A stretch of DNA of 54,233 nucleotides from Alphaproteobacteria bacterium (GTDB lineage: Bacteria > Pseudomonadota > Alphaproteobacteria > UBA8366): the NCBI GenBank assembly GCA_029861675.1, contig JAOTYV010000001.1, positions 1 to 54,233 on the forward strand, given 5' to 3'. This document shows positions 2,359 to 54,222 of this stretch, in pieces; position 1 is the stretch's first letter, and every line of letters starts with the position of its first letter. The notes under the pieces are model-generated. The model worked only from the letters and a program-made list of their open reading frames with translations, ran no database searches and was not told where the DNA came from. The position numbers were made by a program, and so were the translations under genes.

Positions 2359-3678
2359 ATGGTCGATATCCAAACAGCGACGCTGATCATCGTCGCATCG
2401 ATGATCTTGCTGATGATGGTGGGCATACCGCTCGGCATCGTCACCTTGACCGTTTCGATCTGCACGGCGCTGGCCTATTTCGGTATACCGGGCCTGTTCC
2501 TGGTGGCGAGCAACGCGCAGGGCCTGCTCGAGGCCTATCCTTTGGTGGCGGTGCCGCTGTTCGTGCTCATGGCGAACATCCTCGAACGCTCCGGCGTGGC
2601 GGAAGACCTGTTCGACGCGATGTCGATGATCGCCGGCCGGCTGCGCGGCGGCGTGGCGGTGCAAACGACGCTGGTCGCCGTCCTGATGGCGGCGATGACC
2701 GGGATCATGGGCGGTGAAATCGTCATGCTCGGACTGATAGCACTGCCGCAGATGCTGCGGCTCGGCTACGACAAGAAGCTCGCGATGGGAACGATCTGTG
2801 CCGGTGGCTCGCTGGCGACATTGATCCCGCCATCGGTCATCATGATCATCTATGGCCTGACCGCCAACGTCTCGATTTCCGACCTGTTCCTGGGCGGTTT
2901 TCTGCCGGGCCTGCTGCTGGCGAGCCTGTATATCTCCTACATCATGATTCGCTGCAGACTGCAGCCGCATTTGGCGCCGCTCCCCGAAGAGGGATTGATC
3001 CAACTGTCCGGGGCGGAAAAGGCGACAAAGCTCAAGGGCCTGATCCTGCCGATGCTGCTGATCCTCTGGGTACTCGGCAGTATCTATGGCGGTATTGCCA
3101 CGGTGACCGAAGCCGCGGCCGTCGGCGTGTTCGGCGCCGTCGCGGCGGCGGCGTCGCGCAAGAAGCTTTCCTGGGACATGCTCCAGGAAGCCCTGCGCAA
3201 GACCATGATCACGGTCGGCACCATCGTCTGGCTGATCCTGGGCGCCGTCAGCTTCGTCGGGATCTACAACGTCATCGGCGGCAATGAATTCATCCAGGGG
3301 CTGTTGCGCGGTCTCGATATCCCGCCGCTTGGCGTGATCTTCGTGATCATGGGCATTCTCATCGTGCTGGGCACGTTCATGGAATGGATCGCGATCGCCT
3401 ATATCACCGTGCCGATCTTCGCGCCGGTGATCGTCGGTCTCGGCTTCGACCCGATCTGGTTCGGCGTCCTGTTCGTCATGAACATTCAGATCTATTTCCT
3501 GTCGCCGCCCTTTGGGCCCGCCTGTTTCTGGCTAAAGAGCGTGGCCCCTCCGGATATAACGCTGCAGGAAATATTCATGGCCGTGCTGCCGTTTATCGGA
3601 CTGCAGATCATCGGTCTGACGCTGGTGATCGTCTTTCCGGAAATCGTGCTGGTCCTGCCGCGGCTGCTGGGCGGATAG
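2359..3678 (+). CDS. dctM: TRAP transporter large permease (DctM family)
   Basis: Large membrane subunit, 439 residues with about 12 hydrophobic segments, the normal size. The ATG at 2359 follows GGGAGA and sits 4 bp after the dctQ stop; an upstream in-frame start at 2320 would only overlap dctQ. Typical DctM sequences are visible, including LEAYPLVAVPLFVLMANI, GGSLATLIPPSVIMIIYG and NIQIYFLSPPFGPACFWLK. It forms the ion-coupled translocation path. Its TAG stop is also the first three bases of dispersed repeat copy 1, and a rho-independent terminator follows at 3790. Confidence 0.93.
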   Translation: MVDIQTATLIIVASMILLMMVGIPLGIVTLTVSICTALAYFGIPGLFLVASNAQGLLEAYPLVAVPLFVLMANILERSGVAEDLFDAMSMIAGRLRGGVAVQTTLVAVLMAAMTGIMGGEIVMLGLIALPQMLRLGYDKKLAMGTICAGGSLATLIPPSVIMIIYGLTANVSISDLFLGGFLPGLLLASLYISYIMIRCRLQPHLAPLPEEGLIQLSGAEKATKLKGLILPMLLILWVLGSIYGGIATVTEAAAVGVFGAVAAAASRKKLSWDMLQEALRKTMITVGTIVWLILGAVSFVGIYNVIGGNEFIQGLLRGLDIPPLGVIFVIMGILIVLGTFMEWIAIAYITVPIFAPVIVGLGFDPIWFGVLFVMNIQIYFLSPPFGPACFWLKSVAPPDITLQEIFMAVLPFIGLQIIGLTLVIVFPEIVLVLPRLLGG

Positions 3679-3780
3679 ACCAATTCTTGTTTAAATTGAC
3701 CCAAGAGAAATGGTCTATCTCTTTATTTTTGAGCAAATACGTCGTCGCGAACCGTTCCGGTTCGCTCGGGATTTGCTATA
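3676..3780 (+). repeat. Dispersed two-hairpin element, copy 1
   Basis: First of three copies of a 105-base intergenic element, here in plus orientation. It opens with TAGACC (the TAG being the dctM stop) and ends GATTTGCTATA. The left half pairs TAGACCA with TGGTCTA. The right half is a longer hairpin with outer arms GCAAAT/ATTTGC around GCGAACCG/CGGTTCGC. Ungapped hand comparison over the first 101 bases gives 88 matches with copy 2 and 89 with copy 3. Both ends carry TA. Short length, hairpins and TA ends resemble a MITE or REP-like element; I do not recognise a named family. Confidence 0.85.
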
Positions 3781-3789
3781 ACGCACAAC

Positions 3790-3825
3790 GCCGTCGGCGC
3801 TCTGAGCGCCGGCGGTTTTTGTTTT
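3790..3825 (+). terminator. Rho-independent terminator of the TRAP operon
   Basis: The stem CGCCGTCGGCGCT / AGCGCCGGCGG closes on a CTG loop and is followed directly by TTTTTGTTTT. It lies about 110 bp downstream of dctM, just after repeat copy 1, and points with the TRAP genes. Confidence 0.85.
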
Positions 3826-3851
3826 CGAATTGTAGGTTTAAAGCGAGGCGG

Positions 3852-3986
3852 TCAGTTCAGGCTGGTGGCGGGAAGCGACCAGTAGAACATGATGAAGACG
3901 ATAATGGCGCCAAGCGCATACCCGCCGATGGTGGTCCAGATATTCATCCGATCCGGCATCAGGTCGTCGGGATCATCCTGCATCAT
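3852..3986 (-). CDS. Small single-span membrane protein, 44 residues
   Basis: A 45-codon reading frame. It starts ATG ATG with GAGGG 8-10 bases upstream. An acidic head (MMQDDPDDLMPDRM) is followed by one hydrophobic segment, about residues 17-38 (TTIGGYALGAIIVFIMFYWS), and a short tail ending SLN. The charge pattern and ribosome-binding site support a real membrane microprotein. It lies alone between the converging TRAP terminator and the sulfatase gene that starts at 4152. I do not recognise a family; a small accessory subunit of a respiratory or transport complex is one possibility, with no direct evidence. Confidence 0.5.
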   Translation of the reverse strand: MMQDDPDDLMPDRMNIWTTIGGYALGAIIVFIMFYWSLPATSLN

Positions 3987-4151
3987 CGGCTTGGCCCTCG
4001 CTTTCGACGGCGATTATCCGCGCATCTCACCGGTTGGTCAACGGCCCAATATCTGGCCAGCGGTGAGGGCGCGCGGTAGGATCGGCAGCCCCGCCGTCCG
4101 ACACGCCCGTCTCTGCGGCATTCATGCGATCCGCAATTAAATGGAGCCCCC

Positions 4152-5501
4152 ATGGCCAAGAAAAACCCGAATATCGTCCTCATCCTCGCCGACAATCTCG
4201 GTTGGGGCGAACTTGGCTGTTACGGCGGCGGCGTCCTGCGGGGGGCGCCGACACCGCGCATCGACGCGTTGGGTCTGCAGGGGTTGCGGTTCCTGAATTT
4301 CAATGTCGAGAGCGATTGCGTGCCGACACGCTCCGCGCTGATGACCGGCCGCCAGGCGATCCGCACCGGCGCGTTTCAATCGGTCCCTGCCGGCTTGCCC
4401 CAGGGGCTGACCAAATGGGAGGTGCTGCTGCCCGAGGTGTTGTCGGCGCAAGGTTACGCCACCGCGCATTACGGCAAATGGCATCTCGGCGATATCGAGG
4501 GCCGGTTTCCGAACGATCGCGGATTCGACGAATGGTACGGCCTGCCGCGCACGACCAACGAATCGCTTTTCACAACATCGCATGGCTATGACTCGGACAT
4601 TGTTGGTTTGCCCTATGTCATGGAGGGAAAGAAGGGCGGGAAATCCTCGAACGTCAAGGTATTCGACAACGATGAACGGCGGCTGATCGACGGTGAGCTG
4701 GTCGACCGGACGATCGATTTCATGAAAAAACAGACCGCGGCGAAGACTCCGTTCTTTGCCTATGTGCCGATTACGCAGTTGCATTTCCCAAATCTGGCCC
4801 ATCCGGACTTTATGGGCGTTACCGGGCACGGCGAGATGGCCGATTCACTGGCCGAGATGGATCATCGGGTGGGGCAAATCGTGGATGCGGTCGATGCGCT
4901 CGGTATCGCCGAGGATACCATCCTGATGTTCGGCTCCGACAACGGGCCGGAATTTCGCCGGCCCTGGCGCGGCACGGCGGGATATTGGCGCAGCACCTAT
5001 CACACCGCGATGGAGGGCAGTCTGCGCGTGCCTTTCATGATGCGCTGGCCGGGTCAAATTCCGGAAGGCGGCGTCAGCGACGAAATCGTCCATATCGCCG
5101 ACCTGTTCCCGACCCTGCTCGGCCTGATCGGCGCCGACCTGCCGGCCGACCGACCGCTCGACGGTGTGGACCAACTCGATTTCTTCCTCGGCAAACAGGA
5201 GAAATCCAACCGGGAAGGCTTCGTTTACTACATCAAGGATGAGTTGCGCGCGGTGAAGTGGCGCGAATGGAAAGTGCATCTTGTCTGGGAGCCGGAGGTC
5301 AATGACGGCGCGATCAAGCTGGAGGCGCCATACCTGTTCAACCTGATCCAGGATCCGAAGGAAGAGACCAACGTGATGGTAGAGAACGGTTGGGTGCGCA
5401 GCGTTGCAATGCGCATGGTCCATGAGTTCCGCCAGAGCCTAAAGGAAAACCCGCCGATCCCGCCGGGTGCGCCCGATCCCTATACGCCGCCGGGCAAGTG
5501 A
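4152..5501 (+). CDS. Sulfatase (arylsulfatase family, formylglycine type)
   Basis: Hydrolyses sulfate esters; 449 residues, normal for the family. The activation motif C-x-P-x-R is present as CVPTR at Cys56-Arg60, followed by SALMTGR, so Cys56 should be converted to formylglycine. The N-terminal metal loop reads ILADN (Asp14, Asn15) rather than the usual ADD. Other family marks are HYGKWHLGD (Lys109, His111) and GSDNGPE. There is no signal peptide, so it is predicted to be cytoplasmic, unlike many secreted sulfatases. No sulfatase-maturing enzyme is in the window. The ATG is preceded by TGGAGCCCCC. It may desulfate a substrate brought in by the TRAP system upstream (inference). Confidence 0.9.
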   Translation: MAKKNPNIVLILADNLGWGELGCYGGGVLRGAPTPRIDALGLQGLRFLNFNVESDCVPTRSALMTGRQAIRTGAFQSVPAGLPQGLTKWEVLLPEVLSAQGYATAHYGKWHLGDIEGRFPNDRGFDEWYGLPRTTNESLFTTSHGYDSDIVGLPYVMEGKKGGKSSNVKVFDNDERRLIDGELVDRTIDFMKKQTAAKTPFFAYVPITQLHFPNLAHPDFMGVTGHGEMADSLAEMDHRVGQIVDAVDALGIAEDTILMFGSDNGPEFRRPWRGTAGYWRSTYHTAMEGSLRVPFMMRWPGQIPEGGVSDEIVHIADLFPTLLGLIGADLPADRPLDGVDQLDFFLGKQEKSNREGFVYYIKDELRAVKWREWKVHLVWEPEVNDGAIKLEAPYLFNLIQDPKEETNVMVENGWVRSVAMRMVHEFRQSLKENPPIPPGAPDPYTPPGK

Positions 5502-5665
5502 GCGCCCGGCGAGCCGGACCTGAATTTGACATATCAGGATAGTGGCGGCTTTATTGGAGCGGATAAAAACAACAATGTGAAAGAGACATTGACGCTGTCC
5601 CGGAAGGGGCTGCATCCCGATACCGTCAAATACATCCGTTAAACAATCAAACGAGTATCCCTCCT

Positions 5666-6163
5666 ATGCCGTCTTTGCTTTGGGCGATCCGCACGGTCGC
5701 CGCCCTGACCGTCGTCCTTTTACTGGGCGCATGCGTCATCCAGCAACCGCCGCACCGCACCGGGCCTGGACCCGGCGTAACGCCTGCTCCTGTACCGGGA
5801 CCCGATCGCCAAGCGCGCTTCACGCATGCGCGGTATGCGGGTCCGTTCAGTTGCAAGCGATACGGGAGGCGCGCGTTTTTCGATCCGCGCAAGGGCGGCC
5901 AGTGCTGGAAATGCCCCGGCAGTCATCCGCAACGCACGGTGCTGCCCGTCACCGGCAAGCGGGCGTGTCAGCCACGCGGCACGATCGTCAGCCTGGGCGG
6001 CGTGCGCGCCAAGTATATGGGAAAACGGTGCCCGGCCGGCGCCTTCAAGCAACGGGGCGCGAAGCGATGCTTCAAGTGCCCGGCCGGATACCGGCCGCAC
6101 AATATCAAGGTCAAAACCGACCTGCGGCAGGTGCGAAACGCCTGCATTTCGAAGCGTCGCTGA
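5666..6163 (+). CDS. Cys-rich lipoprotein of unknown function
   Basis: 165 residues. The N-terminus is a lipoprotein signal with lipobox LLGAC, so the Cys near residue 23 should be lipidated. A Pro-rich linker follows, then a basic region with two related Cys units: GQCWKCPGSHPQRTV...RAC and KRCFKCPAGYRPHNI...NAC. The CxKCP core and paired downstream Cys suggest disulfide-bonded or metal-binding repeats in the periplasm or on the outer-membrane surface. I recognise no named family. It lies between the sulfatase and an enoyl-CoA hydratase gene on the same strand, with 164 bp of unexplained sequence upstream. Confidence 0.72.
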   Translation: MPSLLWAIRTVAALTVVLLLGACVIQQPPHRTGPGPGVTPAPVPGPDRQARFTHARYAGPFSCKRYGRRAFFDPRKGGQCWKCPGSHPQRTVLPVTGKRACQPRGTIVSLGGVRAKYMGKRCPAGAFKQRGAKRCFKCPAGYRPHNIKVKTDLRQVRNACISKRR

Positions 6164-6318
6164 TCGGAACGGGATTTAAATTTCGTTTCACGGCTTTCGC
6201 TATCGCCCCGACCGACTAAACTACGGACGACTCTATGGATGTAACCTGCGACGGGTTTGCGCCTTTCGGCGCGGCCCGCGCATGTCCTTTGTGGACGCGA
6301 CGAACGGACGGGCGGATC

Positions 6319-7125
6319 ATGACCTACAAGCACATTCTCTTCGACATCAGCGATCAAATTGCGACCATTACCCTGAATCGGCCCGAGGCGCGGAACGCGC
6401 TCAGCCTCGAGATGCGGGAAGATTTGAGCAATGCGCTCGAGGCCATCCGCGAAGGGGCGGGCGATACGGTGAAAGCGGTCATCCTTACCGGTGCGGGCGG
6501 CGCCTTCTGTGCCGGCGGCGACGTCAAGCGGATGGGCAGCAAAACCGAAACCGGCATCGAACACCGCAAGGCGATGCGGTCCGCGCACAACCGGATTTAC
6601 GATATCATTCACATGGAAGTGCCGGTCATCAGCCTGGTCGACGGTCCCGCCGCCGGCGCGGGCTGTAACTTGGCGCTGTTGGCGGATTTCGTGCTGGCGA
6701 CGCCGCGCGGCTTTTTCATGCAGGCCTTCGCGCGCATCGGTCTTGTGCCGGATTGGAGCGGCTTTTACATCCTACCGCGGCTGGTCGGAATCCAACGGGC
6801 GAAGGAACTGATCTACACCGGCCGCCGGGTCTATGCGGAGGAAGCCAAGGAACTGGGGATGGTCCTGCAGATCGTCGATCAGGAGAACGCCATGGCGGAA
6901 GCGCGCGAGTTCGCGGGCCGGTTCCGCCACGCCTCGACCGATGCGATCGGCGTCTCGAAGAACATCTTGAATCAATCCTACAATCAGGATTTCCGCACCC
7001 TGATCGAAATGGAAGCGATGGGCCAAAGCCTGGTCCGCGACACCGACTTCCACCGCGAGGCGGTACGGCGCTTCAAAGATAAGGATACGCCGCTGTTCGA
7101 TTGGGAAGCGCTGTCGAAGGGGTAA
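6319..7125 (+). CDS. Enoyl-CoA hydratase/isomerase family protein
   Basis: Crotonase-fold enzyme, 268 residues. I chose the ATG at 6319 (MTYKHILFD...), the usual family start; an in-frame ATG at 6235 would add 28 residues with no homology character. The CoA-binding/oxyanion motif GAGGAFCAGGDVKRM is present, followed by the second oxyanion segment DGPAAGAGCNLALLADF and GLVPDWSGFYILPRLVG. Members hydrate enoyl-CoA or shift double bases in fatty and aromatic acid breakdown. The cluster also holds a second crotonase and an acyl-CoA synthetase, which together would activate and process an imported acid (inference). Confidence 0.9.
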   Translation: MTYKHILFDISDQIATITLNRPEARNALSLEMREDLSNALEAIREGAGDTVKAVILTGAGGAFCAGGDVKRMGSKTETGIEHRKAMRSAHNRIYDIIHMEVPVISLVDGPAAGAGCNLALLADFVLATPRGFFMQAFARIGLVPDWSGFYILPRLVGIQRAKELIYTGRRVYAEEAKELGMVLQIVDQENAMAEAREFAGRFRHASTDAIGVSKNILNQSYNQDFRTLIEMEAMGQSLVRDTDFHREAVRRFKDKDTPLFDWEALSKG

Positions 7126-7297
7126 GGTGCCTTTGGATCGGGTGGAGCAATCCGCGCGGCAAACTGAAGTTGGATGATGGAACAAGCCTTCACCCTGAGC
7201 GAAGTCGATGACCGGATCCGGCTTGGCCAATGTCCGCGTTTTATCTCGGACCAGCAGTTTCCCGAAGCGGCTTGAGCCGGCGATTGCCGCCGCGCGC

Positions 7298-7402
7298 TAG
7301 ACCATTTCTAGTTCAAAGTGACTCAAGTGAGATGGTCTATCTCTTTGTTTATACGCAAATACGTCGTCGCGAACCGTTTCGGTTCGCGCGGGATTTGCTT
7401 TA
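7298..7402 (+). repeat. Dispersed two-hairpin element, copy 2
   Basis: Second copy, plus orientation, from TAGACCATTT to GATTTGCTTTA. The inner right-hand stem is perfect (GCGAACCG TTT CGGTTCGC), inside outer arms GCAAAT/ATTTGC. Its last three bases, TTA, are the complement of the TAA stop of the dioxygenase gene on the minus strand, so the element end supplies that stop. It has 88 of 101 matches with each of copies 1 and 3 by hand count. Confidence 0.85.
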
Positions 7403-8350
7403 ATCCGCCGCGGCGTTCGATTCCCAGGCGGAGATGATCGGCTCGCCCTTGATCAGGGCGCGGTGCAGCACACGGGGTTGCGTGTGGTCGATCTCCGAGC
7501 GCGCATGCATGGTGCAGCGGTTGTCCCAGAGCACCAGGTCGCCGATCGCCCAGTCATGGGTCCATTTCAAGTGATCCTGGGTTGCGTGATCCCACAGCTT
7601 GCCGAGAATGTCTTCGCTCTCCGCGTCGTCGAGTTCGACGATGAAGCTCGACGGCCATTCATAGTGGCGGCCGAGGTATAAGGCGCGCTTGCCGGTCAGC
7701 GGATGAATGCGGACGATCGGATGGGCCGGGCCCTTGATGTCGTCCCGTGATTTCGGCGGCTCGACAGTCGGACGGAACCGTCCGGCGGTGTTGCGGGTAT
7801 TGTCATGGCGGATGTGCTTGCCTTCGATCCGCTGCTTGAGGTCGTCGGGCAGCGTCTCGTAGGCGAGGTATTGATTGTTGAACGAGGTCTGACCGCCGCC
7901 GTTGACCGGCAGAACATGGGCGTGCAACAGGCTGCCGGCGGGCGGCGTGTCCACATAGGAATTATCCGTGTGCCATTTCAGCTCGAGGCTGCCGACCGCT
8001 TCGGTGATTTTTACCGGTTTGCCGTCCTTGTCCAGGTTGGAGACGATGCTGATGCCCGCATGTTTGGCGACACGGTGTGTTTCGCCCGCCTTGTGGCCGG
8101 CTTTCAGGAAATAGTCGCGCGAGCCCGCGGCCTGCTGCCCGCCGAAGACGTCCGCGGCGGCCAGCAACTGTTCGTCGCTCAGCTTCAGGCCGCGAAACAG
8201 CAGCACCAGGTGTTCGCCCCAAATCCGCTTGATCTCGGCGCCGACCTCCTCGGGCACTGCCTGCGCAAAGTCGATGCCGCGGACTTCCGCGCCGAGCGCC
8301 TTGCCAGAGGGAATAACTTCGATCGCGTCGAGCGTGTTGACGACAGCCAT
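7400..8350 (-). CDS. TauD/TfdA family Fe(II)/2-oxoglutarate dioxygenase
   Basis: 316 residues, normal for the family. The iron-binding triad is visible: His127 and Asp129 in KWHTDNSY, and His282 in RCTMHAR. The 2-oxoglutarate-binding Arg lies in the PRVLHRALIKG segment (about residue 293-297). The enzymes hydroxylate and cleave sulfonates, phenoxyacids or related substrates, using 2-oxoglutarate and O2 in the cytoplasm. The start follows a strong AGGAGG. The gene lies downstream of the second crotonase gene on the same strand with a 192-bp gap. With a sulfatase nearby, a sulfur-containing substrate is possible but unproven. Confidence 0.9.
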   Translation of the reverse strand: MAVVNTLDAIEVIPSGKALGAEVRGIDFAQAVPEEVGAEIKRIWGEHLVLLFRGLKLSDEQLLAAADVFGGQQAAGSRDYFLKAGHKAGETHRVAKHAGISIVSNLDKDGKPVKITEAVGSLELKWHTDNSYVDTPPAGSLLHAHVLPVNGGGQTSFNNQYLAYETLPDDLKQRIEGKHIRHDNTRNTAGRFRPTVEPPKSRDDIKGPAHPIVRIHPLTGKRALYLGRHYEWPSSFIVELDDAESEDILGKLWDHATQDHLKWTHDWAIGDLVLWDNRCTMHARSEIDHTQPRVLHRALIKGEPIISAWESNAAAD

Positions 8351-8542
8351 GGCGTGGTCCTCCTGTGGCAGAGATAAGCTCTGGAATCTATGGTTGGTTC
8401 GATATCCTGTGCGCCGGAAGCCCGGGCCGGGCGGCGGCGTGACGGTGGCTCTTAACGCATACCATTAAAGCAGATTTCATCGCGAATTCCCAGATGGCGC
8501 GGGACGATCAGGACGCCAGGAAAGTCGGGTTGCCGCGATGCG

Positions 8543-9400
8543 CTACTCCGGTGGGTCGATGGGTCGATTGCCGGTCCAGTCGAACGTGCCGCGATCCCGC
8601 TCTTCGACCGCTTGTTTCCAGCCGACCGTTTCGGCGCGGTTCTTGAAATTCAGCCCTTCCGGCGAGTGGCGCGCGATCCCGTCCATGATGGTGGCAAGCT
8701 GCTGGGTGTTGCCGAGCCCCATCGCCTCGATCGCCTGATTGATCACCATTTTGTGCATCATGAGCTGATTGACCGGGACCGTCATAATGCGCTCGGCGAG
8801 CGCCTCGACCTCGGCGTCGAGCGCGTCGGCCGGAACCGATTTCAGCACGAGACCGATGCGCGCCGCTTCCTTGCCGTCGATCTTGTCGCCGGTAAACAGC
8901 ATGCGTTTCGCGTTTTCCGGCCCGAGCCGGTAGACCCACATCGCCGTGGTCGGACAGCCCCAGACGCGGGACGGCATGTAGCCGATCTTCGCATCGTCGG
9001 CCATGACGATCATGTCGGCGCACAGCGCGATGTCCGAGCCGCCGGCGACCGCGTGGCCGTGCACCTTGCAGATCACCGGTTTGTGGGAGCGCCAGACCGA
9101 CATGATGTGATCGGTATTGGCCGCCATTAAGGCGAAATCCTTCATCGGGTCCCACGGCATTTCCTGCGTCACCGGATTCTCGCCGCCGCCCTCGGCATAG
9201 GAGGTCAGGTCATACCCCGCGCAGAAAGCGGGACCGTTTCCCGAGAGAACAATTACGTGAATGTCCGGGTCCTTGTTTGCGGCGGCGACCGCGCCGGACA
9301 GAAGCACGGGGACTTCATCGTCGATCGCGTTCAAGACATCCGGTTGATTCAGCGTAATCCGGCCAATTCGCCCCGTTTTTTCAAACAGCACTTTTGACAT
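8543..9400 (-). CDS. Enoyl-CoA hydratase/isomerase family protein
   Basis: Second crotonase-fold enzyme, 285 residues starting MSKVLFEKTGRIG at 9400; the 69 residues of open frame upstream look non-coding. Motifs include GNGPAFCAGYDLTSY and HGHAVAGGSDIALCADM (the two oxyanion-hole segments), then PSRVWGCPTTAMWVYRLG. In place of the usual catalytic Glu region it carries SRVWGCPTT, so its exact reaction (hydratase, isomerase or hydrolase) is open. It is divergent from the acyl-CoA synthetase gene, 107 bp away, so the pair may share regulation and act in sequence on the same acyl-CoA. Confidence 0.88.
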   Translation of the reverse strand: MSKVLFEKTGRIGRITLNQPDVLNAIDDEVPVLLSGAVAAANKDPDIHVIVLSGNGPAFCAGYDLTSYAEGGGENPVTQEMPWDPMKDFALMAANTDHIMSVWRSHKPVICKVHGHAVAGGSDIALCADMIVMADDAKIGYMPSRVWGCPTTAMWVYRLGPENAKRMLFTGDKIDGKEAARIGLVLKSVPADALDAEVEALAERIMTVPVNQLMMHKMVINQAIEAMGLGNTQQLATIMDGIARHSPEGLNFKNRAETVGWKQAVEERDRGTFDWTGNRPIDPPE

Positions 9401-9507
9401 TCCCGTGGTCTCCTTGGTCTTATGGCTGGCGCGGGGGAGGCGGTCACTGTATCGGAACGCGGTTGCGGTCACAGCCCGGCAATTTTGAACCGATGAGACT
9501 CTAACGG

Positions 9508-11121
9508 ATGTACGATCTTCGCCTATCGGAGTCGCTGATCGCCCCGCAACAGGACGAGGACGTCGAGGAGGCGACCGTCGGCGGCCTGTTGCGCGAGGTG
9601 GCGGCACAACATCCGTCTGCGACGGCCCTGGTCGAGGTCACGATGGAGGGGCGGACTGGCCGGAGCTGGACCTACGGCGATTTGCTGGCGGACAGCGAGA
9701 AATTGGCCTTGGCCCTCTCGACGCGGTACGGCCCGGGCGAACGGATTACCGTATGGGCGCCGAATATTCCGGAATGGCTGTTGATGGAATATGCCTGCGC
9801 GCTGGCGGGGCTCGTTCTGGTGACCGCGAACCCGGCCTATCAAGCGCCGGAATTGCGCTACGTGCTCGAGCAGTCCGGATCATCGGCGCTGTTCCTGGTC
9901 GCGACCTATCGCGGCAACCCGATGGCGGAGATCGCGCTTAAGGCGACGGAAGGCCTCGATGCGATTCGCGACATCGTCGACCTGGAGGACGCCGACGCGC
10001 TGCATCGGACCGGCGACCGGGCGCCGGGGCTTCCCGATGTCGCGCCGGGCGATGCGGCGCAGATCCAATACACCTCGGGGACGACCGGTTTTCCGAAAGG
10101 CGCCATCCTGGGGCACCGCGGGCTCGTCAACAACGCCCGTTTCTTCAACAAGCGCGCCGGGACGCGGCAGGACTCCGTCTGTACGAACTTCATGCCGATG
10201 TTCCATACCAGCGGCTGCGGCATGATTTCATTGGGATGTATGCAAGCGGCCTGCAAGATGCTGCTGCTAAAATATTTCGAGCCGACCGCGATCGTCCGGT
10301 TGATCGAGAGCGAACGGGTAACGTCGATCTTGGGCGTTCCCACGATGCTGGTGGCGCTGCTGGAGACGCTCGAACACGACCCCCGCGACATGTCATCGGT
10401 CGATATGGTGACGTCCGGCGGTTCGATGGTCGCGCCGGAATTGGTCCGTCAAATTCGCCGGGTCTTTGGCTGTGACTTCGAAACCGTGTATGGCCAGACC
10501 GAAACCTCGCCGCTCGTCACCCAGCACTATCCGGACGATACGATCGAAGACATCTGCAATACGGTCGGCCAGCCCTTGCCGCAAACCGGCGTTTCGATCC
10601 GCTCGGTCGCGGACAACACGGTCGTTCCCATCGACGCCGTGGGCGAAATCTGCGTGCGCGGGTACTGCAACATGATCGGGTACTACGCCAACGAGGCGGC
10701 CACCGGCGAAACCATCGACGGGGAGGCCTGGCTGCACACCGGCGATCTGGGCGCGATGGATTCCCGGGGCTATATCCGCATCACCGGGCGGGTGAAGGAA
10801 ATGATTATCCGCGGCGGTGAGAATCATTTTCCGGCGGAAATCGAGAATGTGTTGCTGGAGCACCCAACGGTCGCCGAAGTCGCCGTGGTCGGACTGCCCG
10901 ACGCGAAGTGGGGCGAGATTATCGCGTGTTTCATTCGACCGGAATCCCTTCAGGAGTTGGACCCGCACGAATTGCGCCGTCATTGCCGCGAACGCCTGGC
11001 CCCGCAAAAGACGCCGGTCTTGTGGTTCGGCGTGGCGACGTTTCCGCTCACCGGCTCCGGCAAGATCCAGAAATTCGCCCTCCGCGACGGCTATCAGGCG
11101 GGCGACTACACGCCACTTTAA
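9508..11121 (+). CDS. AMP-dependent acyl-CoA synthetase/ligase
   Basis: 537 residues. Activates a carboxylic acid with ATP and joins it to CoA. The ANL-superfamily motifs occur in order: the P-loop-like YTSGTTGFPKG near residue 188, GQTETSP, then TGDLGAMDSRGYIRITGR with KEMIIRGGENHFPAEIE, and the C-terminal catalytic Lys in TGSGKIQKFALRDGY. It resembles medium/long-chain fatty-acyl synthetases of the FadD/FadK kind. It is divergent from the crotonase gene. Its stop is 3 bp before the left copy of a direct repeat (11125-11168) that marks the edge of a lower-GC insertion. Confidence 0.92.
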   Translation: MYDLRLSESLIAPQQDEDVEEATVGGLLREVAAQHPSATALVEVTMEGRTGRSWTYGDLLADSEKLALALSTRYGPGERITVWAPNIPEWLLMEYACALAGLVLVTANPAYQAPELRYVLEQSGSSALFLVATYRGNPMAEIALKATEGLDAIRDIVDLEDADALHRTGDRAPGLPDVAPGDAAQIQYTSGTTGFPKGAILGHRGLVNNARFFNKRAGTRQDSVCTNFMPMFHTSGCGMISLGCMQAACKMLLLKYFEPTAIVRLIESERVTSILGVPTMLVALLETLEHDPRDMSSVDMVTSGGSMVAPELVRQIRRVFGCDFETVYGQTETSPLVTQHYPDDTIEDICNTVGQPLPQTGVSIRSVADNTVVPIDAVGEICVRGYCNMIGYYANEAATGETIDGEAWLHTGDLGAMDSRGYIRITGRVKEMIIRGGENHFPAEIENVLLEHPTVAEVAVVGLPDAKWGEIIACFIRPESLQELDPHELRRHCRERLAPQKTPVLWFGVATFPLTGSGKIQKFALRDGYQAGDYTPL

Positions 11122-11124
11122 GCC

Positions 11125-11168: not shown

Positions 11169-11196
11169 AGAAGCCGGGGGATCGTGGTCAGGGGCC

Positions 11197-46799: not shown

Positions 46800-46824
46800 A
46801 TAACGCAGTTGTTCCATAACAAGA

Positions 46825-46852: not shown

Positions 46853-46919
46853 TTTATTTATGCGGGCTTGCCCGCCGCCGTCCGTGGCGTTGTTGCGTTT
46901 TCGGGTCGATCTTGGTGGT

Positions 46920-49271
46920 TCAGCCGCCGTGCGGGGCCATGCCGTTGATCGCGCGCCAGATTCGCTCGGGCGTGGCGGGGCCGGCGAACTCATTGGGGTC
47001 CCCGATGGCGTTCAGGGACGCCAGCGCGTCGCCGATCGCGCTGGTAACCGCCGGATACGCCGCCACCGCGCCGGCTTCGCCGCAGCCTTTCACGCCGAGC
47101 GGGTTCGTGGTGCAGTTCGTGCCGTTGAATGCCACGTCGAAGGAGGGCAGGTCGGCGGCGCGCGGCATCGCGTAATCCATGAAGGACGCGGACAGAAGCT
47201 GCCCGGTTTCCGGCTGGTAGACCGCATGCTCCATCAGCGCCTGGCCGATCCCCTGGGCGATCGCGCCGTGCACCTGGCCCTCGGCGACCATCGGGTTGAT
47301 GATCGCGCCGTAATCGTCGACGGCGGCGTAGCGGACCACCGCGACCGTGCCGGTCTCGGGGTCGATCTCCACCTCGGCAATGTGGCAGCCATTCGGATAG
47401 GTCATCGCCTCGCGGATGTATTCCTGCGGGGTGTCGAGGCCGATGTCGCCGTCCTCGGATCGCGTACCGCTCTCGCGCGCAATCCGTGCCACGGTCAGCA
47501 GATCGAGCACGCGATCGGTCCCGCCGACCCGGAACTGGCCGTCGGCGAATTCGATATCCGCTTCGGCTGCTTCCATCGCTCGGGCCGCGACGCGCCGGCC
47601 CTTTTCGATGATCTTCTCGGTGGCGAGGTAGATTGCCGTGCCGCCCATATAGGTCGAGCGCGAACTGCCGTGTCCGCCGCCTTTCGAGATGATGGCGGTA
47701 TCGCCCTGGCGATAGCGCACCCGCCCGAAGGGAACGCCGAGACGGCCGGAAACGATTTGCGGGAAGGTCGTTTCGTGCCCCTGGCCGATCGATTGAGTCC
47801 CGGTGGTCAGCGTCACGGTGTCGTCGTCGCCGAATCGAATTTCTACTTTTTCTTCGGGTGCTCCACCCGTTCCCTTAATGTGATAGGCGAAGCCGAGACC
47901 ACGGCGGAGGCTGCGGGCTTCCGACGCGCGCCGCCGGTCCGCAAAACCGTGGGCGTATTCCAGGGCGGCATCCAGATTGGCGGTAAAATCGCCGCTGTCG
48001 ATGGTCGTGCCCGTGGTGTTCGTATAGGGCATGGCGTCGGCGCCGATCAGGTTGCGCCGCCGGAGGTCGGCGCGGTCGATCTGCATTTCGCGGGCGGCGC
48101 GGTCGATCAGGCGCTCCAGGATGTTGACGGATTCGGCGAAGCCCGGACCCCGCGTCACGCCGATCGGCACCGTATTGGTGGTGACCGCGCCGATGGTGAG
48201 GTGCAGGGCGGGGATCCGGTAGACCGTATTCGGCATTGCGATGTATTGATTGAGGGGAACCCGGCCGCTCGAGCCGCACAGGTAAGCGCCAACATTGGCC
48301 CAACTGCCGACGCGCAGCGCGAGAAATTTGTCCGTGGCGTCAAGCGCGAGTTCGGCCGTCGCGCGATGGTCGCGCGCCTGATGGTCCGATACGAAGCCCG
48401 CGCCGCGCTCGTTGATCCATTTCACCGGCGCCTTCACGGTGCGCGCTGCCCATAACGTCAGGATGTTTTCCACATAGGAAAAATTCTTGGTGCCGAAGCC
48501 GCCGCCCACATCGGGTGCGACGAAGCGCAACCGTTCCGGAGGAATGCCGAGCACAGCCGCAATATTGTCGCGGCCGGCGTGAATGCTCTGGCTCGAGACA
48601 TGGAGCGTGTAGGCGTCGGCATCGCCGTCGTAGACGCCGATCGCGCCGCGCGGCTCCATCGGGTTGGTGACGATGCGGTGGTTGTCGACATCGAGCCGCG
48701 TCACATGCGCCGCGCCGTCGAACGCGCGCCGGGTCGCCGCCGCGTCGCCGGTCTGCCATTCCAGGATAATGTTCCCGGGTATGTCGTCGCTTAATTGCAC
48801 CGCGCCGCCAGCCAGCGCGGCTTCGGCTGTCGTCACCGCCGGCAAGGGGTCGTAGTCGACCCGGATGCATTCCGCCGCGTCCTGGGCCTCCGTCACGGTG
48901 CGCGCGACGACCAGGGCGACCGGCTGTCCCACGTGCCGGACCCGGTCGGTCGCGAGCGGCGGATACGGCGTATAGGCGAAGGGCTCCCCGGTATGTTCGT
49001 TGGCCCGTTCCGCGGGCGGCAGCGAGGCGATCTGCGCCGCGGCCTGGTCCTTGCCCGTCAGCACCGCCAAAACGCCCGGACCCCGGACGGCGTCTTCGGT
49101 GTCGACGCTCCGCACGCGGGCATGGGCATGCGGCGACCGCAGGATCACGGCGTACACCATGCCGTCGAACACGATGTCGTCGACATAGCGGCCGTTGCCG
49201 GTCAGGAATCGTTCGTCTTCGGTACGCTTGCGGGCCTGACCGATTTCAGTGTGTGTCGTGTGCGGTGCCAT
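46920..49271 (-). CDS. Xanthine dehydrogenase/CO dehydrogenase family molybdopterin-binding subunit
   Basis: 783 residues from the ATG at 49271. Large subunit of a molybdenum hydroxylase: KRTEDERFLTGNGRYVDD at the start (CoxL type), APDVGGGFGTKNFSYVE, TRGPGFAESVNILERLID, TTGTQSIGQGHETTFPQI and GVKGCGEAGAVAAYPAV with the catalytic Glu. It lacks the AYRCSFR loop of true CO dehydrogenase, having TRGPGFAES at that place, so it hydroxylates another carbon compound. The FAD (CoxM) and iron-sulfur (CoxS) subunit genes that normally adjoin it are absent here. Confidence 0.9.
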   Translation of the reverse strand: MAPHTTHTEIGQARKRTEDERFLTGNGRYVDDIVFDGMVYAVILRSPHAHARVRSVDTEDAVRGPGVLAVLTGKDQAAAQIASLPPAERANEHTGEPFAYTPYPPLATDRVRHVGQPVALVVARTVTEAQDAAECIRVDYDPLPAVTTAEAALAGGAVQLSDDIPGNIILEWQTGDAAATRRAFDGAAHVTRLDVDNHRIVTNPMEPRGAIGVYDGDADAYTLHVSSQSIHAGRDNIAAVLGIPPERLRFVAPDVGGGFGTKNFSYVENILTLWAARTVKAPVKWINERGAGFVSDHQARDHRATAELALDATDKFLALRVGSWANVGAYLCGSSGRVPLNQYIAMPNTVYRIPALHLTIGAVTTNTVPIGVTRGPGFAESVNILERLIDRAAREMQIDRADLRRRNLIGADAMPYTNTTGTTIDSGDFTANLDAALEYAHGFADRRRASEARSLRRGLGFAYHIKGTGGAPEEKVEIRFGDDDTVTLTTGTQSIGQGHETTFPQIVSGRLGVPFGRVRYRQGDTAIISKGGGHGSSRSTYMGGTAIYLATEKIIEKGRRVAARAMEAAEADIEFADGQFRVGGTDRVLDLLTVARIARESGTRSEDGDIGLDTPQEYIREAMTYPNGCHIAEVEIDPETGTVAVVRYAAVDDYGAIINPMVAEGQVHGAIAQGIGQALMEHAVYQPETGQLLSASFMDYAMPRAADLPSFDVAFNGTNCTTNPLGVKGCGEAGAVAAYPAVTSAIGDALASLNAIGDPNEFAGPATPERIWRAINGMAPHGG

Positions 49272-49520
49272 GTCCCGGTCGATCAGCCATAATTGAAGTC
49301 GGCATCCGATGCTACCGCCCGGCGCGTGCGGAAGCCAGACACGCTTACGGGCGCCCATTGCATGAGTTCGGGAAGCGCGGCACGGGACTTTCATTTTTGT
49401 CCATCGCCGCTACAGTGCGGACGGATTTGTCCGCCGTCATTTTCGCTCCGGCGACGGCGACGATATCGCCGTCGACTTAAGTGCATCACCCCCCAACTGC
49501 ATCACCAACGAGGCTAGCGC

Positions 49521-50996
49521 ATGAAAATCACCTTCGCCGAACCCGGCATTCCGAAAAAAGGCGCCCTGGTCGTGGGCATCGCCGAGGGCAAGAAGCTCGG
49601 CCCGGCCGCGAAACAGGCGGATCAGGCCTGCGGCGGCGCGGTTGCGCGCGCGCTCAAAGGCAGCACCTTCGAAGGCAAGGCCAGGCAGATGCTCGATATC
49701 GTTGCGCCGGCGGGAATGACGGTGAGCAGAATTGTCTTAATGGGGCTCGGCAAGAAGCTGGATGAGCGGGGCGAGATCGATCTGGGCGGGCGCGTCCAGG
49801 CACGCTTGGACGAGGCGGGGGAAAGCCAGGCGACCATCGCCGTCGATCTTGGCGTCGATGATCCGACCCTGGCGGCGGCGCGGATCGCCTATGGCGCACA
49901 ATTGCGCAGCTATCGCTTCGACAAGTACCGCACGAAAAATGAGAAGAAGAAAAAGCCTTCGCTGGCCAGTCTCGCGGTGTCGGTCAAGGGAAGCGCCAAG
50001 GCGCGGCGGAGCTTCGGGCCGATGAACAAGGTTGCCGACGGCGTGTTTTTCACCCGCGATCTGGTGTCCGAACCGCCGAACGTCCTGTACCCGGCGAGCT
50101 TCGCGACGATGGTTCGAAGCCTCAGTAAACTTGGCGTCAAGGTGGAAGTGCTCGGCGAAAAGCAGATGGAGAAGCTCGGCATGGGCTCGCTGCTTGGTGT
50201 CGGACAGGGATCGCGCCGGGAAAGCAAGCTCGTCGTCATGCAGTGGAACGGCGCCGCCAAATCGAAACAGCCCATCGCCTTTGTCGGCAAGGGTGTTACC
50301 TTCGATACAGGCGGCATCTCGCTGAAGCCGGGTCCGGGCATGGGGGAGATGAAGTGGGACATGGGCGGCGCGGGTGCGGTTTCCGGGCTGATGAAGGCCC
50401 TGGCCGGCCGGAAGGCCAAGGCAAACGTGATCGGCATCCTGGGGCTGGTCGAAAACATGCCGGACGGCAATGCGCAGCGTCCGGGGGACGTCGTCAAATC
50501 GATGTCGGGTCAGACGATCGAAATCCTCAATACCGACGCCGAGGGGCGGTTGGTGCTCGCGGACGCGCTCTGGTATTGCCAGAAAAGGTTCAAGCCCAGG
50601 TTCATGGTCGACCTGGCGACACTGACTGGCGCGATCATCGTCAGCCTCGGCCATGAGTATGCCGGGCTGTTTTCCAACGACGACAAATTGTCCGAGGCTT
50701 TGTCGGCGGCCGGCGAGGCGACCGGCGAAAAGGTCTGGCGGATGCCGATCGGCAAGGCGTTCGACAAGATGATCGACAGCGATATCGCCGATATGAAAAA
50801 CATCGGGGGCCGCGATGCGGGATCGATCACGGCCGCGCAATTCCTGCAGCGTTTCACCAACGAGGTGCCGTGGGCGCATCTGGACATCGCCGGGACGGCA
50901 TGGACGAACGAGGTGGCCGACACGGTGCCGAAGGGCGGCGCGGGCTTTGGCGTGCGCCTGCTGGACCGATTGGTGCGCGACAATTACGAGGGCTGA
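49521..50996 (+). CDS. pepA: Leucyl aminopeptidase (M17 family)
   Basis: 491 residues, normal length. Removes N-terminal residues from peptides in the cytoplasm with two metal ions; in E. coli PepA also binds DNA. The active-site segments are GKGVTFDTGGISLKPG (metal Lys and Asp), EMKWDMGGAGAVSG and the signature NTDAEGRLVLADAL. It is followed by holC 19 bp later, the standard alphaproteobacterial pairing, and is divergent from the molybdopterin subunit gene, where lptF would normally lie. Confidence 0.95.
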   Translation: MKITFAEPGIPKKGALVVGIAEGKKLGPAAKQADQACGGAVARALKGSTFEGKARQMLDIVAPAGMTVSRIVLMGLGKKLDERGEIDLGGRVQARLDEAGESQATIAVDLGVDDPTLAAARIAYGAQLRSYRFDKYRTKNEKKKKPSLASLAVSVKGSAKARRSFGPMNKVADGVFFTRDLVSEPPNVLYPASFATMVRSLSKLGVKVEVLGEKQMEKLGMGSLLGVGQGSRRESKLVVMQWNGAAKSKQPIAFVGKGVTFDTGGISLKPGPGMGEMKWDMGGAGAVSGLMKALAGRKAKANVIGILGLVENMPDGNAQRPGDVVKSMSGQTIEILNTDAEGRLVLADALWYCQKRFKPRFMVDLATLTGAIIVSLGHEYAGLFSNDDKLSEALSAAGEATGEKVWRMPIGKAFDKMIDSDIADMKNIGGRDAGSITAAQFLQRFTNEVPWAHLDIAGTAWTNEVADTVPKGGAGFGVRLLDRLVRDNYEG

Positions 50997-51015
50997 ACCG
51001 GGCGGGGCGCCGGCA

Positions 51016-51474
51016 ATGGAAATCCGTTTCTACCATTTGCAGCATATGGCGCTCGAGCGTGCGTTGCCGCAACTGCTCGAGAAGACGCTGGAGCGGGGCT
51101 GGCGCGCGGTCGTCATGGCCGGGTCGGAAGAGCGGGTGGACGCGCTCAATGGCCAGCTTTGGACCTATACCAAGGATAGTTTCCTGCCCCATGGCAGCCA
51201 AAAGGACGGGCACGCCGAGATGCAGCCGGTCTGGCTTACCCATCTCGACGAGAATCCGAATTCGGCCACGGTCCTGTTTCTGGTCGATGGGGCGAACACT
51301 GCCAAGGTCGGCGATTTCGAGCTTTGCTGCGATCTCTTCGACGGGCGCGACGAGGCCGCGGTCGAGGCGGCGCGCGGGCGCTGGACCACCTGTAAGGAAG
51401 CCGGTCACAAGCTGACCTATTGGCAGCAATCGGAGACCGGCGGTTGGGAGATCAAGGCCGAAGAAAACGGCTAG
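51016..51474 (+). CDS. holC: DNA polymerase III chi subunit
   Basis: 152 residues from the ATG at 51016. The chi family start MEIRFYHLQHMALERALPQL, then KTLERGWRAVVM, DALNGQLWTYTKDSFLPHG and VLFLVDGANTAKV fit well. It links the clamp-loader psi subunit to single-strand binding protein at the replication fork. It follows pepA by 19 bp and is likely cotranscribed. Confidence 0.93.
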   Translation: MEIRFYHLQHMALERALPQLLEKTLERGWRAVVMAGSEERVDALNGQLWTYTKDSFLPHGSQKDGHAEMQPVWLTHLDENPNSATVLFLVDGANTAKVGDFELCCDLFDGRDEAAVEAARGRWTTCKEAGHKLTYWQQSETGGWEIKAEENG

Positions 51475-51517
51475 AAAGGGTGCCGGGTCGGGTGTAGGCG
51501 CCTTGCAAATTGCCACC

Positions 51518-51637
51518 GTCACCCCGGACAAGCGGCGTAGCCGCGCCGATCCGGGGGCCAGGGCTTTTGGCACAGCACTTCGGAATCCCTGGGAATCCCT
51601 GGATCCCGGCTCTCCGCTCCGCTGCGGCTGGGATGAC
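51518..51637. repeat. Palindromic intergenic repeat of the CCCCGGA/TCCGGGG type
   Basis: Lies between holC and the ABC-F gene. Outer arms GTCACCCC and GGGATGAC enclose two sub-hairpins: CCCCGGA/TCCGGGG around GCGGC-GTA-GCCGC, and ATCCCGGC opposed to GGCTGGGAT. A short tandem GGAATCCCT is repeated at 51581. Repeats of this GTCAYCCCGG kind are widespread between genes in many alphaproteobacteria (recollection). Confidence 0.65.
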
Positions 51638-51659
51638 AGCCTAAAAAAATAAGCGCGCG

Positions 51660-53549
51660 CTATCCGTCGGTCGCCAACGCGGCGTCCAGCGCGTCTTGCG
51701 CCGCAAGCCAGCGTTCTTCAACAGCGGCGAGTTCGCGTTCGACGGTTGCCTTGCGTTTGTTGAGTGCCGGCAGTTCCGGCGCGGCGCCATTATAAAATTC
51801 CGGATCGCCCAAGCGGCGCTGGATTTCCTTCATTTCGGCGCCGAGCGTGTCGAGACGCTTTTCCGCCTCGCGCACCGCCTGACGCAACGGCACCAGCGTC
51901 GCCCGCTGTTGTGCTCGCTCGCGGCGGTTGGTGAGCTTCGATGACGCTTTCGCGGGTTTCCCGTTGGCCGGCCGCGACCGGGATTGCTTCGCACGGAGCA
52001 GCGTCGTCCGGTAGCTTTCGACATCGCCGTCATAGGGCGTGCAGGTGCCGTTCGCGACCAGCCATAATTGATCCACGGTCAGCGACAAAAGATGCGGGTC
52101 ATGGGTCACCAGCACGACGGCGCCGGCAAAATCGTTGAGCGCGCGGAGCAGGGATTCCCGGGCGTCGACGTCAAGATGGTTGGTCGGTTCGTCCAGCAGC
52201 AACAGCTGCGGCGCGTCGCAGCAGATCGTCGCCAGGACCAGGCGCGCGCGTTCGCCTCCCGATAGCTGGTCGACCACAAGGTCGGCCTTTTCCTGGGCAA
52301 AGCCGAAACGGCCGAGATGGGCCCGCCGTTCGGGTTCGGACTTCCGGGGCATCAGCGCGGTGATATGCTGGTAGGCGGTTTCCCTGGCGTTCAGCTGGTC
52401 CAATTGGTCTTGTGCGAAATAGCCGGTCCGGAGCTTGCCGCTGCGCGTGATGTCGCCCGTTTCATGTTGAAGTTGCTTGCAAAGAAACTTCATCAAGGTG
52501 CTTTTGCCGTTTCCGTTTTCGCCGATCAGGCCAATCCGGTCATCGGTGTCGATACGCAGCGAGAGGTTGCTCAGAATCGGCGCGCCGGGCTGGTAGCCGA
52601 CGGCAATATCATAGGTCGTGATGAGCGGCGGCGGCAGCGCCTGCGGCACCGGAAACTCAAAATTGACGGTTTCCTCGCGCACCGCCAGCGCGATCGGTTG
52701 CATCCGTTCGAGCATCTTGAGGCGGCTTTGGGCCTGGCGGGCCTTGGTCGCCTTGTAGCGAAACCGATCGACAAAGGCCTGGATGTGCTGCCGCTCCGCG
52801 TCCTGCTTTTTCTGCAGATGCGCTTGATGCGCCAGTCGTTCGCTCCGGGTTCTTTCGAAGCGGTCGTAGCCGCCCGGATAGAGCGTCAGGCTGCCGTTTT
52901 CCAGATGCAGGATGCCGTCGACCGAACGGTTGAGCAGCGCCCGATCATGGCTGACGAGCACGAAGCCATAGCGATAGGAGCCGAGATAGGATTCGAGCCA
53001 CATTGCCGCCTCGATATCCAGATGGTTGGTCGGCTCGTCGAGCAGCAGCAGGTCCGGCTCGGTGAAGAGGGCGGCGGCAAGATTGACGCGCATACGCCAG
53101 CCGCCGGAAAAGGAATCGACGGGCCGGCCCTGGGCCGCTTCGTCGAAGCCGAGCCCGGCGAGGATGGTCGCCGCCCGGGCGGGTGCGGAATGGGAGTTGA
53201 TGTCGGCAAGCCGGATATGGATATCGGAAATCCGCATGGGATCGGTCGCGGTTTCGGCCTCCTCCAGCAACTGGGCGCGTTCGATATCAGCGGCGAGAAC
53301 GATTTCCAGCGGTGTCCGCGAGCCCCGCGGCGCGTGCTGTTCGACCCGGCCGAGCCGTGATTTTGCCGCCAACGACACGTCGCCGGAATCCGGGCTGATA
53401 TCGCCGGCGATGAGCCCCAGCAGCGTCGACTTGCCGGCGCCGTTGCGGCCGACCAGTCCGATCCGCCTGCGGGCGCCGATTTGCGCCGAGGCGTCCTCAA
53501 ACAGGAGGCGGCCACCGATCCGATAGGTAAGGTCTTTAATTGATAACAT
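51660..53549 (-). CDS. ABC-F family ATP-binding protein
   Basis: 629 residues with two ATPase domains and no membrane spans. First domain: Walker A GRNGAGKST and signature SGGWRMR; second: GENGNGKST and SGGERARL, each with LLLDEPTNHLD. A linker with charged helices lies between them (RSERLAHQAHLQKKQDAERQ), the P-site tRNA interaction motif region, and a coiled-coil tail follows (about residues 525-620). The layout is like Uup/YheS. It acts on the ribosome or in translation quality control rather than transport. It sits between holC and ndk on the opposite strand. Confidence 0.93.
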   Translation of the reverse strand: MLSIKDLTYRIGGRLLFEDASAQIGARRRIGLVGRNGAGKSTLLGLIAGDISPDSGDVSLAAKSRLGRVEQHAPRGSRTPLEIVLAADIERAQLLEEAETATDPMRISDIHIRLADINSHSAPARAATILAGLGFDEAAQGRPVDSFSGGWRMRVNLAAALFTEPDLLLLDEPTNHLDIEAAMWLESYLGSYRYGFVLVSHDRALLNRSVDGILHLENGSLTLYPGGYDRFERTRSERLAHQAHLQKKQDAERQHIQAFVDRFRYKATKARQAQSRLKMLERMQPIALAVREETVNFEFPVPQALPPPLITTYDIAVGYQPGAPILSNLSLRIDTDDRIGLIGENGNGKSTLMKFLCKQLQHETGDITRSGKLRTGYFAQDQLDQLNARETAYQHITALMPRKSEPERRAHLGRFGFAQEKADLVVDQLSGGERARLVLATICCDAPQLLLLDEPTNHLDVDARESLLRALNDFAGAVVLVTHDPHLLSLTVDQLWLVANGTCTPYDGDVESYRTTLLRAKQSRSRPANGKPAKASSKLTNRRERAQQRATLVPLRQAVREAEKRLDTLGAEMKEIQRRLGDPEFYNGAAPELPALNKRKATVERELAAVEERWLAAQDALDAALATDG

Positions 53550-53697
53550 GGTGCGGTCAATAGCACGCCCGGGTAGTCCAGCGGAAGCATCTGGCGTCCC
53601 GCCAAATTGTTGCTAACATACGCTTGCTCAAGGTGTTGTGGCCGTCTATAACCCGGCGGCCCAAAAAAGATCGAAACAATCGAGGAAACGGTTCGAA

Positions 53698-54120
53698 ATG
53701 GCTGTCGAACGAACGTTATCCATCATCAAACCCGATGCCACCCGCCGAAATTTAACCGGTCAAATCAATGCCCGGTTCGAGGAGGCCAACCTCCGGATCG
53801 TCGCACAGCGGCGGATTCGGCTGTCTCAGGAGCAGGCGGAAGGCTTCTACGCGGTTCACAAGGATCGGGCGTTTTTCAACGATTTGTGCGAGTTCATGTC
53901 GTCCGGGCCCGTGGTGGTTCAAGTCCTGGAGGGGGAAAACGCGATCGTCCGCAATCGCGAGATCATGGGGGCGACCAACCCGGCGAACGCCGACGATGGA
54001 ACCATTCGCAAGGATTTCGGGGAATCGATCGAGGCGAATTCGGTGCATGGATCCGACAGCCCCGAGAACGCCGCGGCGGAAATTGCGTACTTCTTCAGTC
54101 TGCTGGAAGTGGTTGGGTAG
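53698..54120 (+). CDS. ndk: Nucleoside-diphosphate kinase
   Basis: 140 residues from the ATG at 53698, with AGGAAAC about ten bases upstream. Balances nucleoside triphosphate pools by a phospho-His intermediate. The signature [16 protein letters not shown] at the start and catalytic His117 in ANSVHGSDS are present. The TAG stop lies at the end of repeat copy 3, which begins at that stop. The neighbouring pepA-holC pair fits the usual alphaproteobacterial order, with the ABC-F gene between. Confidence 0.96.
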
Positions 54121-54222
54121 AGCAAATCCCGAGCGAACCGAAATGGGTCGCGACGACGTAGTTGCATAAAAACAAAGAGATAGACCATTTCACTTGCGTC
54201 AAATTAATCAAGAAATGGTCTA
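54118..54222 (-). repeat. Dispersed two-hairpin element, copy 3
   Basis: Third copy, in minus orientation: read that way it runs TAGACCATTT ... GATTTGCTCTA. The left hairpin is best preserved here, with perfect ten-base arms TAGACCATTT and AAATGGTCTA. Its last three bases are the complement of the ndk TAG stop, so the element end supplies the stop. It has 88 matches of 101 with copy 2 and 89 with copy 1 by hand count. Confidence 0.85.

Follow-up and report, generated by a model that had tools for sequence, protein, structure and literature searches.

The window, the whole 54,233-nt stretch of alphaproteobacterial DNA analysed here, contains three copies of a 105-bp repeat element, each of them sharing one end with a protein-coding gene. 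Copy 1 (positions 3676 to 3780, plus strand) is composed of a left hairpin (3676 to 3717), a linker (3718 to 3732), a right hairpin (3733 to 3776) and a short tail (3777 to 3780). Copy 2 (7298 to 7402, plus strand) has the same parts at 7298 to 7339, 7340 to 7354, 7355 to 7398 and 7399 to 7402, and copy 3 (54118 to 54222, minus strand) has them at 54222 to 54181, 54180 to 54166, 54165 to 54122 and 54121 to 54118. These positions and strands agree with a previous sequence-only reading of the stretch, and the three copies were the longest repeats listed by a repeat finder in the window. Without gaps, 88 (copies 1 and 2), 89 (1 and 3) and 88 (2 and 3) of 101 bases matched, so that the earlier hand count was right; over the full 105 bases the numbers were 91, 92 and 91. 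The two hairpins and the ends, TA at the start and T-N-T-A at the finish, were also as described before, with folding z-scores of -4.40, -4.77 and -2.22 for copies 1 to 3 (200 shuffles each). The inner stem of the right hairpin of copy 3 is partly mismatched. No curated Rfam RNA family matched the window at its gathering score.

The gene at copy 1 (2320 to 3678, plus strand) encodes the large permease of a TRAP transporter (Pfam DctM), and its TAG stop codon (3676 to 3678) is the left end of the element. At copy 2, the right end forms the TAA stop (minus strand, 7402 to 7400) of a TauD/TfdA-family dioxygenase gene (7400 to 8350, minus strand; homologues have a precomputed PF02668 assignment). 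Copy 3 supplies, with its right end, the TAG stop (54118 to 54120) of ndk, encoding nucleoside diphosphate kinase (53638 to 54120, plus strand; Pfam NDK). Thus, one terminal TA of each copy does lie inside the stop codon of its neighbor, as had been proposed. Directly downstream of copy 1, and distinct from it, a hairpin with a T tract (3790 to 3816, plus strand) resembles an intrinsic terminator; the region from 3500 to 7600 contained 4 such sites, compared with a shuffle mean of 4.4, which makes the evidence for this hairpin weak.

Among the 120 matches listed for the ABC-F protein encoded in the window, one environmental cluster shared 97% identity with it and none of the others exceeded 63%. 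Protein clusters P0001 (94% identity) and P0121 (97%) indicate that relatives of the window organism are present in other assemblies. The organism names among the listed homologues were alphaproteobacterial, e.g., Rhodospirillales, Rhodovibrionaceae, Varunaivibrio and Magnetospira. A scan with the ABC-F protein gave 80 listed loci with 44 to 57% identity and no close relative among them, and the identity to the ABC-F proteins of the nine copy-bearing genomes described below was only 46 to 57%.

To find further copies, related genomes were searched as the sequence-only reading had advised. A pattern scan of genome contigs with the exact core gave no match, and neither did a first blastn pass over 22 genomes. 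A blastn search of 385 alphaproteobacterial genomes, in which scoring was limited to the two best candidates per genome, gave 9 genomes with a match at E <= 0.01, and a repeat search of these nine with the cutoff at E <= 1 yielded between 1 and 20 matches per genome. Thirteen copies, the three in the window and 10 from five other genomes, were used to build a covariance model (R1). The window copies, which belong to this training set, scored 109.2 (copy 1, with the terminal TA present at both ends), 106.8 (copy 2) and 103.5 bits (copy 3). At E <= 1e-3, R1 detected 17 matches in genome G331, 30, 33, 13 and 1 in G126, G411, G413 and G412, and 56, 30, 9 and 1 in G281, G183, G415 and G418, a few of the matches being opposite-strand shadows or fragments. 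The number of copies per copy-bearing genome was therefore 1 to 56, and most of these genomes were multicopy. The copies in G331 were almost identical and mostly located on different contigs. The distribution within genome families was patchy: copies were detected in 1 of the 9 genomes of the G331 family, 4 of the 14 of the G126 family and 4 of the 9 of the G281 family, which also includes the genome (G019) of an Elstera MAG (L046). Since at most 150 candidates were scored per genome, a genome with zero matches is not proof of absence. Four viral contigs in IMG/VR (L324 to L327) matched the right-hairpin pattern exactly; such contigs are a possible transfer route for the element.

Complete copies were mostly 103 to 106 bp long. 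The left part consists of a hairpin running from TAGAGC to GCTCTA and is followed by the T-rich linker. The right part reads GCAAAT, ACGTCGTC, a variable stem-loop-stem, TCGGG, ATTTGC and TCTA, and the inner sequences ACGTCGTC and TCGGG are near-invariant. In an alignment of 73 distinct rows, 91.9% of the cells paired, and the covariation score was 0.300, compared with 0.148 for shuffled alignments and no more than 0.106 when the structure was slid; the cells are not independent events, because the model structure guided the alignment and a small number of genomes supplied many of the rows. The number of further pair types (43 versus 40.6 in shuffled alignments, matched by 67 of 500 shuffles) was the sole unexceptional measure among five. 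Within the right stem, the four inner pairs had changed on both sides in 27 to 35 of the 73 rows, and at least five distinct inner stems could be told apart by eye. As judged from these substitutions, the arms keep their pairing while their sequence varies by lineage. Some copies were longer (131 to 134 bp) or had no left arm. A class of 132 to 134 bp recurred in three genomes of one family (G183:C30:338069-338200, G281:C13:31593-31724 and G415:C384:1901-2034). At two loci (L093 and L094) the right hairpin stood alone with no left arm, in one case as two units in tandem, and the arms may move or decay separately.

The target site was studied in 72 of the 115 collected copies, namely, those with TA at both ends; the other 43, in which a terminal TA had been lost, were excluded. 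The sequence YTAR was found at 63 of the 72 insertions, compared with 419 of 3,187 background TA sites in the flanks, and was divided into TTAA (31 copies), CTAA (15), TTAG (9) and CTAG (8). An open reading frame (ORF) of at least 80 codons ended at the terminal TA in 50 of the 72 copies and, after four orthologous duplicates were dropped, in 47 of 68, the ORFs being called mechanically and some of them spurious. The codon inferred to precede the insertion was TAA or TAG in 45 of the 68 independent copies, in line with the earlier suggestion that the element is often found at stop codons; among background sites, such stops were present at 222 of 3,187 TA sites and at 87 of 419 YTAR sites. At 6 of 10 readable empty sites, the stop was native, i.e., older than the insertion. 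Stop codons at the ends of the element are general to the family. They accumulated exactly at the element boundary: 56 of 136 element sides had a stop at the terminal TA, compared with 35 stops scattered across the 80 bp outside and 3 within the 40 bp inside. The left end provided 28 stops and the right end 34, indicating no orientation bias. In two of four regions read in annotated Sinorhizobium and Rhizobium plasmids (L306 and L307), the right end of the element was the annotated stop of the neighboring gene.

The size of the stop excess depended on the baseline. Against all YTAR sites in 80 other alphaproteobacterial loci, the odds ratio was 11.8 for ORFs of >= 100 codons and 15.9 for ORFs of >= 150 codons. 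Against YTAR sites outside ORFs, it was 1.7 (P = 0.06) and 3.2 (P = 2e-5), respectively. A dedicated targeting of stop codons is unneeded given this modest excess. The use of stop codons is mostly explained by the preference for YTAR together with the loss of intragenic insertions, and any extra preference for stops is at most mild. The targets flanking the window copies are ATAA, CTAA and CTAC, only one of which is YTAR; these copies are diverged and probably older.

To check for TA duplication, empty sites were searched for in relatives. Among the copies collected, G126 and G411 had 13 insertion places in common (12 single copies and one tandem cluster), with flanks that were 81 to 98% identical, the tandem cluster excepted. 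For 25 copies without a counterpart in the other of these two genomes, the two flanks were joined with one TA and searched in G126, G411 and G413. Nineteen loci, covering 14 occupied sites, were aligned base by base; 11 further junction-spanning matches at 70 to 81% identity (2 with loci and 9 without) were left out. At 10 of the 14 sites, the flanks were continuous with exactly one TA in at least one relative, whereas the remaining four had no clean TA (TT, CA, CA or not alignable). Inserts of about 90 to 100 bp were present at the same place in G126 for G411:C23:6984 and C59:56347, so these two insertions are shared and the site is empty only in G413. For G126:C12:441017, about 55 bp lay between the flanks in G411. 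Rhizobium locus L307 carries a 103-bp insert that R. anhuiense (L308) lacks, and the junction has one additional, unexplained T. The annotated L-idonate 5-dehydrogenase gene stops with TAG at the element end in L307, whereas its stop reads TAA where the site is empty in L308. A second Rhizobium locus (L304, compared with L309 and L310) was rejected as a clean empty site, as the sequences differ by 165 bp, about 62 bp more than the element. In the tandem copies G411:C94:39-326 and G126:C3:19313-19506 (L247 and L229), neighbors overlap by exactly two bases, suggesting a TA-sized unit common to both, and these bases now read CA. Sequence alone does not separate duplication of the TA from an insertion next to a TA that leaves it single. 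The symmetry of the YTAR target favors a double-strand DDE mechanism.

A transposase partner was sought among IS630 elements. Of the 7 copy-bearing genomes searched, 4 contained matches to DDE_3 (IS630); G183, G413 and G415, with 30, 13 and 9 copies, respectively, gave none, and the window contained no IS630 relative. The IS630 copy of G126 has the ends TAGAGCATGATG.../TAGAGCGTGATG... and is located in TTAG. The same copy in G126 and G411 (L298 and L299) is identical at 1,070 of 1,070 positions, in contrast to the 81 to 98% identity of the flanks of shared insertions, and is broken into several frames in both genomes. In these genomes the insertion sequence begins TAGAGCATGATG and the short repeats begin TAGAGCATCATG, with ends in common over about 12 bp; in general, this end similarity is short (about 6 to 12 bp). 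Thirteen related plasmid loci, drawn from the matches listed (40 of 754 records), were added to the G126 locus. A clear TA-anchored pair of inverted-repeat ends was detected at 7 of these 14 loci, with scores of 24 to 27 compared with 15 to 21 for one shuffle per locus. Six of the seven pairs start with TAGAGC and one with TAAAGC, and all seven are located in YTAR; as L311 and L317 carry nearly the same insertion sequence, they represent six distinct elements. The other seven loci had no clear end pair, and three of them had TAGAGC at the right side only. The L311 element, annotated in its record as a member of the ISRm2011-2 family, resembles the repeat in its TAGAGC ends, its TA and its YTAR target and differs from it in being about 1,057 bp long with a transposase gene.

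The sequence-only reading had also advised a search for a full-length transposase with matching ends. Matching ends flank the broken insertion sequence of G126 and G411, but no end pair like those of the repeat was found around the DDE_3 matches of G331 (L296 and L300) or around the third match of G411 (L301). In G281 (L297, at about 1995), a one-sided TAGAGC end was present in CTAG, about 100 bp past the DDE_3 match, and no left end was found. The IS630 transposase at L296 (G331:C10:25634-26038) has an open frame of 273 codons, and no TAGAGC ends were found around it.

On this evidence, we estimate a probability of roughly 0.8 that the copies are TA-flanked miniature inverted-repeat transposable elements (MITEs) inserted into YTAR, most likely by an ISRm2011-2-like transposase of the IS630-Tc1-mariner group, and an ISRm2011-2-like IS630 element is the likely transposase source. 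Each copy would be a nonautonomous MITE of about 101 bp (GAGC/GACC...GC-T-N) with TA on either side, and the transposase would insert it into YTAR and duplicate the TA. This is close to the nonautonomous mariner/IS630-type insertion suggested before, which is now backed by the empty sites and by IS630 elements sharing ends and target. Stop codons would be natural targets because TAA and TAG are TAR, and since the inserted end would restore TAG or TAA, the gene would lose nothing. Insertions within genes would be lost by selection, so that surviving copies would accumulate at stops and in intergenic DNA. Sequence comparison establishes the multiplicity, the single-TA empty sites, the YTAR preference, the coincidence with native stops, the pair-keeping substitutions and the matching IS630 ends and target. 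The part of an IS630 transposase as agent is inferred from these, and the three window copies presumably arrived by the same route. Against this mechanism, the empty sites are known from relatives and not from the loci of the window copies themselves.

Two other explanations are each unlikely. The element could be an mRNA 3' structure (a terminator, a stabilizer or an RNase target) that the host maintains after stop codons, mobility being only its origin. The pairing of the arms across lineages, the 13 orthologous places occupied in both G126 and G411 and the T-rich linker after the left hairpin would fit such a role, which the sequence-only reading had also proposed. However, neither orientation is favored, the element is absent from orthologous sites in relatives and patchy within families, and copy 1 is followed by a separate terminator-like hairpin, and these results lend no support to a required role at 3' ends. 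The second explanation retains mobility and assigns it to another mover, either a different YTAR-targeting transposase such as IS711 or a single-strand enzyme of the RAYT type with the hairpins as its substrates. IS711 belongs to the IS5-type family. In Brucella it is reported to target YTAR, to duplicate TA and to be associated with the Bru-RS repeats (PMC2266754). For a RAYT-like enzyme, the hairpins resemble REP-type substrates, and ACGTCGTC resembles the CGTC-tagged REPs of Alphaproteobacteria as excerpted from PMC3733652; membership in that group was set aside, only a CGTC string being common to both. Against another mover, IS630 elements match the element in the TAGAGC terminus and in target, and a symmetric YTAR is unexpected for single-strand enzymes. 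That the copies are ancestral intergenic sequence that was never inserted is hardly credible given the near-identical dispersed copies and the 10 single-TA empty sites in relatives, its only point being that no empty site was found for the window copies.

An extension of the MITE reading is more tentative. The element may belong to an IS630-driven superfamily present throughout the Alphaproteobacteria, for which the stop codon is a safe harbor rebuilt by TAG and whose arms, with ACGTCGTC and TCGGG, might serve as a two-orientation module of the mRNA 3' UTR; we consider this combination doubtful.

The sequence-only reading knew of no named family, but the element belongs with the two-arm repeats CIR, Bru-RS and RIME, having like them two hairpin arms and a linker within about 103 to 110 bp. 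R1 detected eight full-length places in seven loci outside the window (rough E-values of 2e-7 to 2.7e-4), none of which was in the training set, though four of these loci were first noticed via the linker. These were found in Tianweitania, Brucella pecoris, B. rhizosphaerae, two Falsochrobactrum species, R. tropici and an unclassified MAG, and these matches place the window element in this group. The placement rests on anatomy, size and R1 homology, CIR being compared from published descriptions.

The RIME repeats of Rhizobium consist of two palindromes and are about 108 bp long. They were reported by Osteras (1995), as cited in PMC2573895. R1 matched R. tropici (39.3 bits) and Tianweitania (44.7 bits) over the full length, with the linker core CTCTTTGTTT in common. 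Bru-RS repeats of Brucella are 103 to 105 bp long (table in PMC2267715) and are similar in length and hairpin makeup; the full-length matches in Brucella (L063 and L074, 40.1 and 39.4 bits) are candidate Bru-RS. The stem sequences of Bru-RS differ from those of the element. CIR, the CcrM-associated intergenic repeats of Caulobacter (Chen and Shapiro 2003), are described in a 2007 review (excerpts of PMC2229807) as about 110 bp long, with two arms, a linker and terminal TA, intergenic, and abundant in Alphaproteobacteria including Brucella; in the same excerpts, repeat elements other than CIR have no arms and linker. The element of the window differs from CIR in that GANTC is described as highly conserved in a terminal loop of CIR (PMC2229807, excerpts), whereas in its left loop (positions 11 to 36) GANTC is present in only one of the three window copies (copy 2, as GACTC) and in 2 of 100 copies of the branch of the element. 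Because GANTC is mostly missing, the element was not assigned to CIR proper; when the whole element was considered, half of the copies from named relatives (5 of 10) carried GANTC. RUP of Streptococcus pneumoniae, compared by description, is likewise a short TA-targeting element with ends like those of a resident IS630 (107 bp; proposed mover IS630-Spn1; PMC2229807, excerpts).

Among the matches listed in a search of open-licence literature, no paper treated CIR, RIME or Bru-RS as IS630 MITEs or as inserted in stop codons, and the 2007 review gives the target duplication of CIR as "?" and leaves the mechanism of mobility open (PMC2229807). The empty sites, the YTAR target and the TAGAGC ends offer a concrete and testable answer to how CIR, RIME and Bru-RS move, and YTAR targeting would be a simple reason why two-arm repeats are found at stop codons. 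It may also explain the association of IS711 with Bru-RS, since the ends of Bru-RS would supply YTAR sites. As far as can be judged by comparison, the element is a known kind of repeat in a variant form, with a well-supported mechanism of transposition.
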